Assembly (NCBI GenBank): GCA_001766905.1 | Contig: MEKI01000160.1 | Coordinates: forward strand, 9,097 to 48,476 | Direction of reading: 5' to 3' | DNA from: Acidobacteria bacterium RBG_13_68_16 | GTDB lineage: Bacteria > Acidobacteriota > Thermoanaerobaculia > Thermoanaerobaculales > Thermoanaerobaculaceae | Length of the DNA stretch: 39,380 nucleotides | Shown here: positions 3,392 through 17,284 of the stretch, piece after piece | Layout of the letters: every line of letters begins with the position of its first letter | Position numbering within the stretch: position 1 is the stretch's first letter | The notes under the pieces: model-generated | Seen by the model: only the letters and a program-made list of their open reading frames with translations | Databases searched by the model: none | What the model was told of the DNA's origin: nothing | Program-made: the position numbers and the translations under genes

Positions 3392-3431
3392 AGGCCGATG
3401 TCAGGAGAAGCAACATGAGGTGGAGGTCAAG

Positions 3432-5903
3432 ATGACGACGACCCATTCGAACGACGGTGAGCTGCGGATCGGGGTGTTTGTGTGCGACTGCGGGCTGAAC
3501 ATTGCCGGCACCGTGGACTGCGCGGCGGTGGCGGCGCACGCGGCCACACTGCCGGATGTGGTCTGCGTCGTGCGCAACAAGTACACGTGCGCCGATCCCG
3601 GGCAGAACGAGATCAAGAACGCGGTTCGCGAGCAGCGCCTGAACCGCGTCGTGGTCGCCTCGTGCACCCCGCGGCAGCACGAGCCGACATTTCGGCAGTG
3701 CGTGCTTGGGGCCGGCCTCAACCCCTACCTTATGGAGATGGCCAACCTGCGCGAACACTGCTCCTGGGTCCACCCAGGGGACCGCGAAGGCGCCACCCGC
3801 AAGGCGAAGGACCTGGTGGCGAGCGCGGTGGCCAGGGCGCGGTTCCTGCAGCCGCAGGAGGAGCTCGCCGTGCCGGTCACCAAGAGGGTGCTGGTCATCG
3901 GCGGCGGGGTGACCGGGATCGAGGCCGCCCTGCAGTTGGCCGACGCCGGGCACAAGGTCACGCTCGTGGAGAAGCAGGCGTCTATTGGTGGGATCATGGC
4001 ACAGCTCGACAAGAACTACCCCACCATGGACTGCTCGATATGAATCCTGGGGCCAAAGGCCATCGATGCCGGTCGGCATCGTAATATCGAGCTCCTCACC
4101 TTCAGCGAAGTCGAAGCGGTTTCCGGTTTCATCGGGAACTTCACGGCGACGATTCGCAGGAAGGCGCGCTACGTCGATCCGAGTTTGTGCAACGCGTGTG
4201 GCGACTGCGCCAAGGTGTGCCCGGTGGTCAGACCGGACGAGTTCCAGATGGGGCTCTCCTCCCGGAAGGCGATCTACATCCAGTTTCCCCAGGCGGTACC
4301 TTGTTCCTACATCCTCAACATGGACGATTGCCTGGGCAACAACCCCATCGCGTGTGGGAAGTGCGCCGACGCCTGCGACAAGCGCGCCATCAACTACGAC
4401 GATCGCGACCAGATCATCACTCGCGAGGTGGGCGCGGTCGTCGTCGCTATCGGTTTGGACGTCTACGATCCCACCGAGCTGGACGAGTACGGCTACACCC
4501 GTTTCGAAAACGTCATCTCCTCGATGGAGTTCGAACGGCTCATCTGCGCCGGTGGCCCGACCGGCGGGCACTTCGTACGTCCCAGCGATCAGGAGCGCCC
4601 GACGCGAATCGGCTTCATCCAATGTGTGGGCTCGCGCAACCCGAAAGTTGGTCGGCCTTACTGCTCCAACATTTGCTGCATGAATACGATCAAGGACACG
4701 CTGCTGCTTGCCGACCACTACCCCGATGTCGCGAACGTCGTTTTCTATCAGGACATCCGCGCCGTCGGCAAATCGTTCGAGGACATGTTCCAGCGCTCCA
4801 AGGAGGCGGGGACACGCTACGTCCGCGGGCTGCCGGGCGAAATCGAGGAGGACCCCGAGACGCGCAACCTCGTAGTCACGGTTGAGAACACGACATCTGG
4901 CAAGCTCGAACGGCACGAGCTGGAGATGGTGGTGCTTTCGGTGGGCGTGCAGCCGGCCAAGGACATGTCCAGGATTGCGAGCATGCTTACCCTCTCCAGG
5001 ACCTCCGACGGGTTCTTCATGGAGTCGCACCCCAAGCTCAAGCCGGTGGACGCGCCGACCCGGGGCGTCTTCCTCGCGGGTTTCTGCGAGTCGCCCAAGG
5101 ACATCAAGGACTCGGTGTGTCAGGCGGGGGCGGCGGCCTCCCGCGCCGGCGCCCTGCTCAATGCGGGACAGATCACCATCGAGGCGATCACCAGCCGGGT
5201 GGACGAGGTGGCCTGCACCAGGTGTGGTGTGTGTGCCAAGGTCTGCCCCTACGGCGCAATCGTGTGGAAGAAGGGCGAGGTGGCGTCGGTGGTGGAGGCT
5301 GCCTGTGCGGGGTGCGGGTCATGCAGCGCGTCATGCCAGTTCGGCGCCATCACCATGCGCCACTTCACAGACGAGCAAATCCTCGCTCAGGTGCATGCCG
5401 TCCTCGCCGAGGACCCACAGGACAAGGTCTTCGCGTTCGCCTGCAACTGGTGCTCCTACGCTGGTGGCGACATGGCCGGGATCTCGCGCATGACCTACCC
5501 GGCTAGCAACCGTGTGGTGCGGACCATGTGCTCGGCACGCGTCTCGGAGGAGATGGTGCTGGAGGCGTTCCGCTGCGGCGCCCCCGTGGTCCTGGTCTCC
5601 GGGTGTCATTTTGCCGATTGCCATTACATCAACGCCAACCGCCAGACCGTCCAGCGTGTCCACAAGCTGTGGGACAAGCTTGAAAAAGCGGGGGTGCGAC
5701 CAGAGCGACTGCAGCTCGAGTGGATCTCGGCCGCGGAAGGGCAGAAGTTCGCCAAGGTCATGCGCCAGTTGGAGGAGTTGCGCGGTACTGTTACCCGGGA
5801 CGAAATCGAGCACGCGAGGGAGGCGCTCAAGGCAAAGCCGGGGAAGAGACCCGGGGTCCGAGCTGCCGAGCCGGTGGTCGAGGCACCAGCGGCCCAGACG
5901 TGA
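3432..5903 (+). CDS. hdrA: Selenocysteine-containing HdrA-MvhD fusion (in-frame TGA at 4041-4043)
   Basis: 823-residue bifurcating-type flavoprotein when TGA 4041-4043 is read as selenocysteine, residue 204. Order: N-terminal HdrA domain; FAD motif GGGVTG near residue 158; the motif Asp-Cys-Ser-Ile-Sec-Ile-Leu-Gly-Pro-Lys; an inserted double ferredoxin from about residue 253 ([11 protein letters not shown] and CGKCADAC); two C-terminal ferredoxin motifs from about 595 ([22 protein letters not shown]); and an MvhD domain from about 667 ([23 protein letters not shown]). The reading frame is unchanged before and after the TGA, and homology continues directly through it. HdrA of some methanogens is known to carry Sec at this site, near residue 197. 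A hairpin at 4064-4081 fits a bacterial SECIS. ATG 3432 follows GGAGGT at 3422-3427. A conventional gene caller would split this into a fragment ending at 4043 and another starting at 4185. Alternatives are a nonsense mutation or base error; the SECIS makes these unlikely. Confidence 0.9.
4064..4081 (+). promoter_or_regulatory. Bacterial SECIS hairpin for the HdrA selenocysteine codon
   Basis: CGATGCC (4064-4070) pairs perfectly with GGCATCG (4075-4081) around a GGTC tetraloop (4071-4074). The stem begins 20 nt after the TGA at 4041-4043, and the loop starts after 27 nt. Known bacterial SECIS elements sit inside the coding region just after UGA, with an apical loop that begins with G about 16-37 nt away; the E. 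coli fdhF loop also contains GGUC. The hairpin codes for unconserved residues between Pro-Lys and Asn-Ile-Glu. This is predicted from sequence only. Confidence 0.85.
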
Positions 5904-15557: not shown

Positions 15558-16520
15558 CTACGCCGAGGTGGGCAGGTCTGTGGCCAGCGTCGCCTCCTGG
15601 ACCTCGAAACCCGCCGAGACCCACGCCTGGAAGCCGCCCGCGAGCGGCCGGATGCGCTGGAACCCTTTCTCCTTGAGCTTGGCAGCCACCCGGGCCGCCG
15701 TGGCCTCGTTGGGTCACGTGCAGTAGAGGATGATCTCCTGCTCCGTCGGGATGCCCGCGAGCTTCTCGTCGAGCTCGTTGAGGTGAAAGCGTATGGCGCC
15801 CGGGATGGTGCGCGGATCGAACCGATAGGACAGGTTTGTCCGCACGTCGAGGATCAGCGGGTTGTGCCCTTCGACCAGCAGTCGCCTGAGATCCTCGACC
15901 GAGATGCGTGCCATGCGCAGAACGCGCTGGAACTGCACGAGCCTTGCCCAGCGCATCAGCAGGTAGAGCGCGAGCCCGAGCAGAAGGAGTGCGAGGCCCC
16001 AGGCACCCATGTGCTCGAACGCGGCTACCAGGCGGTCCACCTGGCGGTGGAAGAGTACGCCGCCTGCGACGGCGGCCCCCGCCCACACCGCCGCCCCGGC
16101 CGTGTTGTAAAGCAGGAACGTCGCCGTCGGCGTGCGCAAGATCCCGGCCAGCGGCGGTGCGACCGTGGAGTACCCGGGGATGAACTTGGCGAGGGCGAGC
16201 GACATGAGGCCGTAGCGCTCGAAGATTCCTTCGGTCTGGCGGACGCACGACTCGGGGGAAACGGACACCCGGCACACGGCCCTGAGCGCCCGATACCCGA
16301 AGCGCCGTCCGGCGAGGAACCAGGGGAAGTCTGCGATAACCGAAGCTGCAACGGCAACCGCAAGCACCAGGGGTGCCGACAGTTTGCCGTCCGCCGCCAG
16401 CGCGCCGGCGAGCACGAGGGTGGGAAGCGCGGGGATCGGCAACCCGCCCTGCTCGAGTAGGACGTTGGCGAAAACGAAGAGCAGTCCGTACCTGGCGATC
16501 AGGTCTACTAGCTGGTCCAT
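15558..16520 (-). CDS. DedA-family membrane protein fused to a rhodanese domain, probable selenoprotein (TGA at 15716-15714)
   Basis: 320-residue protein if TGA 15716-15714 is read as selenocysteine (residue 269). Residues 1 to about 200 form a DedA/SNARE-associated membrane domain with several helices and the Phe-Ile-Pro-Gly-Tyr-Ser motif. Residues 210-310 are a rhodanese domain: Leu-Ile-Leu-Asp-Val-Arg, Pro-Gly-Ala-Ile-Arg-Phe, then Ile-Ile-Leu-Tyr-Cys-Thr-Sec-Pro-Asn-Glu-Ala. The frame continues after the TGA with 51 residues of proper rhodanese C-terminus (Arg-Pro-Leu-Ala-Gly-Gly-Phe-Gln-Ala-Trp) to TAG at 15560-15558. Related fusions have Tyr-Cys-Ser/Thr-Cys-Pro-Asn-Glu, so Sec replaces the second Cys, two residues after the presumed persulfide-forming Cys267. 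Stopping at the TGA would leave the rhodanese without its active-site loop. ATG 16520 follows GGGAGC. A nonsense mutation or base error cannot be excluded. Confidence 0.8.
15685..15704 (-). promoter_or_regulatory. Candidate SECIS hairpin for the rhodanese selenocysteine codon
   Basis: On the minus strand GCCAC (15704-15700) pairs with GTGGC (15689-15685). GG (15699-15698) can pair further with CC (15693-15692), leaving a CGGC loop that starts 16 nt after the TGA and a two-base bulge. Spacing and GG-containing loop fit bacterial SECIS rules, but the stem is less perfect than that of the HdrA gene. Confidence 0.55.
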
Positions 16521-16660: not shown

Positions 16661-17284
16661 ATGGCCGAGACGCGCAGGCGCTGCTGGCTGGGAGCCCCCG
16701 ATCCGCTGATGGAGGCGTACCACGACACGGAGTGGGGCGTGCCCGTGCACGACGACCGCCGGCACTTCGAGTTCCTGGTCCTGGAGGGGGCGCAGGCCGG
16801 GCTGTCGTGGCGAACGGTGCTTCAGCGGCGCGAAGGGTACCGGCGCGCCTTCGCCGGATTCGATCCGCACAAGGTGGCGCGCTTCACCCCGGCGCGGGTC
16901 GAGAGGCTCCTCGCCGACAGCGGGATCATCAGGAACCGTGCCAAGGTCGCTTCGGCGGTCGGGAACGCCCAGGCGTTCCTCAGGGTCCAGGAGGAGTTCG
17001 GCTCGTTCGACGCCTTCATCTGGTCGTTCGTGGGTGGCAGAACGCGCGTCAACGCGCAGAGGTTGCTGAAGGACATCCCGGCCCGGACGCCGGAGTCGGA
17101 GGCGCTCTCGAAGGAGCTCGTCAGGCGGGGGTTCCGGTTCGTCGGCCCGACCATCGTGTACTCCCACATGCAGGCGTGTGGCCTCGTCAACGATCACCTG
17201 GTGAGCTGCTCACGGTACAGGGAGCTGGCGGGGCTCGCCGGGCGGGGTGCCGGCCCCGCAGCGCGCAGGGGACGGAAGAGGTGA
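16661..17284 (+). CDS. tag: DNA-3-methyladenine glycosylase I
   Basis: 207-residue base-excision repair enzyme that removes 3-methyladenine. Signatures: an N-terminal Arg-Cys-Trp with conserved zinc-ligand Cys, Tyr-His-Asp-Thr-Glu-Trp-Gly-Val-Pro-Val-His-Asp-Asp near residue 20, Leu-Glu-Gly-Ala-Gln-Ala-Gly-Leu-Ser-Trp, and near the end Phe-Val-Gly-Pro-Thr-Ile-Val-Tyr-Ser-His-Met-Gln-Ala-Cys-Gly-Leu-Val-Asn-Asp-His. ATG 16661 is preferred because the Cys-Trp motif follows at once, as in E. coli Tag; ATG 16622 in the same frame is possible. The stop overlaps the GTG of the EF-P gene. Confidence 0.92.
   Translation: MAETRRRCWLGAPDPLMEAYHDTEWGVPVHDDRRHFEFLVLEGAQAGLSWRTVLQRREGYRRAFAGFDPHKVARFTPARVERLLADSGIIRNRAKVASAVGNAQAFLRVQEEFGSFDAFIWSFVGGRTRVNAQRLLKDIPARTPESEALSKELVRRGFRFVGPTIVYSHMQACGLVNDHLVSCSRYRELAGLAGRGAGPAARRGRKR

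Follow-up and report, generated by a model that had tools for sequence, protein, structure and literature searches.

The DedA-rhodanese gene and its internal TGA

The window analysed here, a stretch of 39,380 nucleotides from Acidobacteria bacterium RBG_13_68_16, carries on its minus strand an open reading frame for a DedA/VTT membrane domain followed by a rhodanese domain, with a single internal TGA at residue 269 in the context ILYCT-U-PNEATAARVA (Table 1). Both Pfam domains lie in one frame and score above their gathering thresholds, and the rhodanese match spans the TGA, in agreement with an earlier note on this DNA that had described an open frame of 51 residues with rhodanese homology past the codon. 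The frame closes at TAG 15560-15558, and standard annotation would end the protein at 268 aa. The AlphaFold2 model of the protein (pLDDT 84) displays a rhodanese fold resembling solved rhodanese structures. Cys267, located directly after the strand of residues 263-266, aligns with the catalytic persulfide cysteine of solved rhodaneses, and the predicted Cys-x-Sec loop reads YCTU. A flavin-reductase-like gene is located downstream on the same strand.

Table 1. Positions in the window of the DedA-rhodanese gene, its parts and a second TGA site
Feature	Position	Strand	Basis
CDS, predicted DedA-rhodanese selenoprotein, 320 aa including Sec269	15558..16520	-	ORF, Pfam, orthologues
DedA/VTT membrane domain, residues 29-154	16059..16436	-	Pfam PF09335, 6.3e-13
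Rhodanese domain, residues 208-302	15615..15899	-	Pfam PF00581, 1.4e-13; model resembles rhodanese structures
Cys83 codon; residue conserved in all 83 fusion proteins	16272..16274	-	Alignment
Cys92 codon; residue conserved in all 83 fusion proteins	16245..16247	-	Alignment
Cys267 codon, rhodanese persulfide cysteine position	15720..15722	-	Profile alignment to solved rhodaneses; invariant
TGA codon, predicted to be read as Sec269	15714..15716	-	All homologues have TGA or Cys in this column
SECIS-type hairpin GGCGGCC-CGGGU-GGCUGCC, 14 nt past TGA	15681..15699	-	Folding and comparison
Second predicted Sec TGA, HdrA CSIU motif (gene about 3400-5903)	4041..4043	+	

TGA and cysteine at codon 269 among relatives

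Comparative analysis of 100 related genomes, the own genome counted in, revealed TGA at exactly codon 269 in 26 of the 27 full-length copies, the relatives being 40-83% identical to the window protein. Those same-genus members that named collections include are MAGs of uncultured Acidobacteriota. The lone exception (L043), from the same genus, carries a cysteine codon, and SelA was not found in its genome, which is 84% complete. A wide scan of 84,980 species, with one genome per species, extended this pattern: the best 80 loci comprised 55 with TGA and 25 with Cys at this codon and no third state. Among these, TGA loci belong to Acidobacteriota, two 'Rokuibacteriota' MAGs and many Betaproteobacteria MAGs, and Cys loci to Nitrospira, Herminiimonas, Nitrosospira, Alcaligenes, Massilia and others. 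Nearly all of the Sec members seen come from uncultured genomes. Residue 269 was Sec or Cys in each of the 83 aligned proteins, and on the tree at least two Sec/Cys exchanges are forced, with five as the simplest history. The proposal of the earlier note that the TGA interrupts the rhodanese loop where related fusions have Cys is thus borne out by the alignment, and the Sec/Cys exchange that it suggested looking for occurs among the relatives.

The same comparison bears on the possibility that the TGA is a true stop behind which the rhodanese tail of a shortened DedA gene is decaying, or that it arose as a sequencing error. The standard code indeed yields a 268-aa product, and the hairpin behind the codon has a single-sequence z of about 0. 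Pairwise identity, however, is highest in the 40 columns past the TGA (0.67, compared with 0.54 in the DedA domain and 0.48 in the rhodanese part ahead of the TGA), so that the stretch downstream of the codon is the best conserved part of the protein and the decay expected behind a random stop is not observed. An assembly error is likewise contradicted, since dozens of genomes, assembled independently and spread over at least two phyla, share TGA269. The presence of TGA269 in the DedA-rhodanese gene is therefore confirmed, and a true stop or sequencing error appears extremely improbable. A few MAG copies (L085, L086, L103 and L108) show a further in-frame stop inside the matched stretch, perhaps representing a true gene end or an assembly error.

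No conserved operon partner was found for the gene in Acidobacteriota. Genes for pirin, a LigB-type dioxygenase, a WrbA-like flavodoxin, DoxX, nitroreductase or YceI were present within 6 kb of 23 of the 33 betaproteobacterial-type Sec loci, of 2 of the 25 Cys loci and of none of the 22 acidobacterial-type Sec loci, these counts being rough as some contigs are short. Such neighbours, often accompanied by a LysR regulator, are seen for example at L061, L081, L085, L093, L095, L101, L102, L107, L115, L120 and L125. The betaproteobacterial neighbourhood gives a hint of redox or electrophile stress.

SECIS-type hairpin and selenocysteine machinery

The hairpin with a GG-containing loop that the earlier note had placed at SECIS distance is present with a CGGGU loop, and was found to be weak when considered alone, its folding energy in the single sequence being ordinary against shuffles (z about 0.1-0.6). 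Comparison across genes was consequently needed to make it convincing. A minimum-energy test on synonymous shuffles was uninformative (mean z -0.23), as energy tests are in this GC-rich coding sequence, and codon-level covariation was used instead, with 72 distinct Sec genes set against 22 Cys genes.

The Sec genes share the consensus GC(G/C)GC(C/G)-CGUGU-(G/C)GC-N-CGC at codons 6-11 past the UGA (n = 72). Three apical pairs form in 72/72 Sec genes versus 10/22 Cys genes and the complete 6-bp stem, interrupted by a bulge of one base, in 65/72 versus 1/22, counts that include related sequences and do not represent independent events. The template together with the CGUGU loop occurs in 64 of the 72 Sec genes, compared with 1.9% expected when the amino acids are held fixed and synonymous codons are drawn from the Sec genes' own usage. 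The arginine codon CGT is found in 67 of the 72 genes, compared with a usage of 10%. As the counts are not independent, the weight rests on the two-sided pair change between clades and on the Sec/Cys tree. At the top pair, 39 genes, mostly of Acidobacteriota, have C-G and 33, mostly of Betaproteobacteria, have G-C, and no gene breaks it (n = 72). At the next pair, a C on the 5' side is matched by an opposite G in 12/12 genes, compared with 2/60 otherwise (Fisher 6e-12). In the genus of the window the hairpin deviates slightly, with CGGGU as its loop and a continuous stem of 7 bp in which one G-U pair replaces the bulge. A small apical loop containing G has been described as the criterion for bacterial SECIS elements (PMC1088965), and both CGUGU and CGGGU are of this kind, on an apical stem that is conserved throughout the Sec genes.

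Furthermore, the genes required for selenocysteine insertion accompany the TGA. The own genome encodes SelA (465 bits) and SelB (302 bits). With weak EF-Tu-like matches left out, SelB was detected in 22/25 Sec genomes as compared to 4/24 Cys genomes (p = 5e-7); the 3 of the 25 Sec genomes in which a clear SelB was not found are all draft MAGs. Betaproteobacterial Sec genomes contain tRNA-Sec with anticodon TCA, as do four genomes of the same genus as the window's (G001, G002, G005 and G008).

An alternative reading, in which a near-cognate or reassigned tRNA inserts Cys, Trp or some other amino acid at the UGA, draws on the own draft genome, where a tRNA-Sec gene was not found, nor in the SelA and SelB neighbourhoods. 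The first match to the Rfam tRNA-Sec model there (G000:C18:14675-14766, L001; 50 bits against a cut-off of 47) proved to be tRNA-Ser CGA; such false positives of the model on tRNA-Ser were also seen in relatives. The own contig C151, however, tracks the corresponding region of G005 and stops at 16858 with the bases GGTGGC, which in G005 straddle the start of the tRNA-Sec gene, and an assembly gap at this locus is the simple reading of the missing gene. Together with the tRNA-Sec genes of the four congeners, SelA, SelB, the covarying SECIS and the strict Sec/Cys exchange speak against readthrough with another residue, which we consider highly improbable, though slightly less so than a true stop. 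Given a TGA column in at least two phyla with Cys as the sole alternative, a covarying hairpin missing from Cys genes, and the co-occurrence of SelB, SelA and tRNA-Sec, Sec is almost certainly inserted at UGA269, as judged from these comparative data, in line with the genuine Sec use proposed by the earlier note. In the likely course of decoding, the hairpin directly past the UGA would recruit SelB and Sec-tRNA.

In bacteria, decoding of UGA as Sec competes with release factor. A regulated dual product may thus be envisaged, with a DedA protein of 268 aa, devoid of the active-site tail, at low selenium, the full enzyme in the presence of selenium, and the codon acting as a selenium sensor. Stopping at the UGA would leave the membrane domain intact; no sign of selection on the short product was seen, though, and the idea fits any selenoprotein, making it quite improbable.

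The second Cys-to-TGA site that the earlier note had reported within the window is as well real: it lies in hdrA, in the context TMDC-S-I-U, and HdrA CxxU is an already known selenoprotein family and site (PMC13188914). Many separate rhodanese genes with one in-frame TGA were observed in related genomes (e.g., G048:C187, G065:C7 and G077:C13), and one fragment (L046) reads YCTUPGEG and has NF041203 as its best match (101 bits); several Sec rhodaneses may therefore coexist in one genome.

Membrane domain, active site and known families

Taken as a whole, the gene very probably encodes a selenoprotein in which a membrane DedA domain is joined to a rhodanese with a Cys267-Thr-Sec269 loop. The protein might function mainly as an undecaprenyl-phosphate (UndP) flippase of COG0586 with a merely regulatory rhodanese, in accordance with its DedA/VTT Pfam match and with the counting of rhodanese-fused COG0586 proteins, a known class, among putative flippases (PMC10127716). 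UndP flipping is reported to require Glu39, Asp51, Arg130 and Arg136 (YghB numbering; PMC10127716). In the alignment with E. coli YghB and YqjA, the fusion proteins have lost Asp51 and Arg136 through substitution or deletion, Arg130 is Lys in 82/83 and Glu39 is kept in only 51/83, so the flippase residue set is incomplete in the window protein. A main flippase function is accordingly unlikely, and the DedA part is probably not a canonical undecaprenyl-phosphate flippase. YqjA and YghB share the homologous membrane domain and, unlike the window protein, possess the flippase residues but neither a rhodanese nor the C83/C92 pair. Both cysteines are also missing from the three aligned DedA proteins that are unfused. 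Net positive charge surrounds C83/C92 and follows the last helix, a distribution suggesting that this pair and the rhodanese reside on the cytoplasmic side; a role of the pair itself may be proposed from its conservation.

The best reading is a membrane-anchored cytosolic Cys-x-Sec enzyme of persulfide/thiol redox chemistry. Cys267 would take up sulfane sulfur, and Sec269, which at +2 should reach the Cys267 persulfide, would attack it with release of sulfide and formation of a Cys-Sec bond. Re-reduction could be performed by thioredoxin-type thiols or by Cys83/Cys92 on the same cytoplasmic face, the DedA part serving mainly as an anchor or as a redox-coupled transporter. Selenenylsulfide and persulfide chemistry at Cys267-Sec269 is what we infer from the loop, and a Cys-Sec redox cycle of persulfide reduction or transfer has, in our estimate, an even chance of being the main chemistry. 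An ordinary sulfurtransferase, in which Sec269 merely tunes the persulfide loop, would agree with the classical persulfide position of Cys267 and with the NCBI name 'thiosulfate sulfurtransferase GlpE' for the Cys homologues. The restriction of residue 269 to Cys or Sec in 83 proteins points instead to direct chemistry at this position, and we regard the ordinary sulfurtransferase as the less probable, tentative option. Somewhat more doubtful is a membrane chalcogen relay, in which C83/C92 would exchange electrons with Cys267-Sec269 and a repurposed DedA domain would couple persulfide or selenium redox to transmembrane substrate movement; if such a relay were true, the substrate moved would be a lipid, a sulfur or selenium species or an electrophile.

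Among known systems, E. coli YgaP resembles the window protein as an inner-membrane-anchored rhodanese whose solved domain matches both profile and model; it has no DedA domain, no Sec and no CxC or CxU loop. TsoB (NF045694), a rhodanese/DsbD fusion-like family, by its name likewise combines a membrane-type part with a Sec-containing rhodanese-like domain, but has a UxxxxU motif and a DsbD-like rather than DedA part, and the window protein scores 17.5 bits against its cut-off of 805. The best NCBIfam match is NF041203 (rhodanese_LYCAU, 81.7 bits), which shares the Cys-x-Sec in the rhodanese loop; unlike the window protein with its N-terminal DedA domain, NF041203 is a rhodanese-only model of 126 positions, and its cut-off of 115 bits was not reached by the window protein or by other fusions (74-76 bits). 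The rhodanese CxU site has already been catalogued as 'rhodanese-like form 3' under this model (PMC13188914, PMC9312934). Proteins annotated as 'DedA family protein/thiosulfate sulfurtransferase GlpE' in Burkholderia and Xanthomonas have the same domain order, and Cys83, Cys92, Cys267 and residue 269 are conserved in the Cys homologues aligned; they differ in having Cys at 269, no SECIS and usually no SelB. PA1209 of P. aeruginosa has the DedA-rhodanese architecture too (PMC12893004).

What is new is thus the DedA fusion with Sec, the CxU rhodanese site and the Cys-type fusions being already known. The DedA-rhodanese selenoprotein is absent from the 119 selenoprotein families of PMC13188914, and our literature search found no paper naming a DedA selenoprotein; an earlier mention is possible in a groundwater MAG survey (PMC13188914 ref. 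66) or in PMC12013261. The review PMC13188914 mentions a MAG of Methylomirabilota, from a groundwater survey, that carries 63 selenoprotein genes.

The finding adds a well-supported membrane selenoprotein architecture to the catalogue of those 119 families, one that occurs in dozens of uncultured bacteria and is widespread among Acidobacteriota and Betaproteobacteria of soil and groundwater. The occurrence of Sec and Cys orthologues at one codon makes the contribution of selenium to a CxC rhodanese testable. The link between DedA and rhodanese has been called unclear (PMC10127716), and the altered DedA residues together with the fixed cysteine pair bear on the role of rhodanese-fused DedA proteins.
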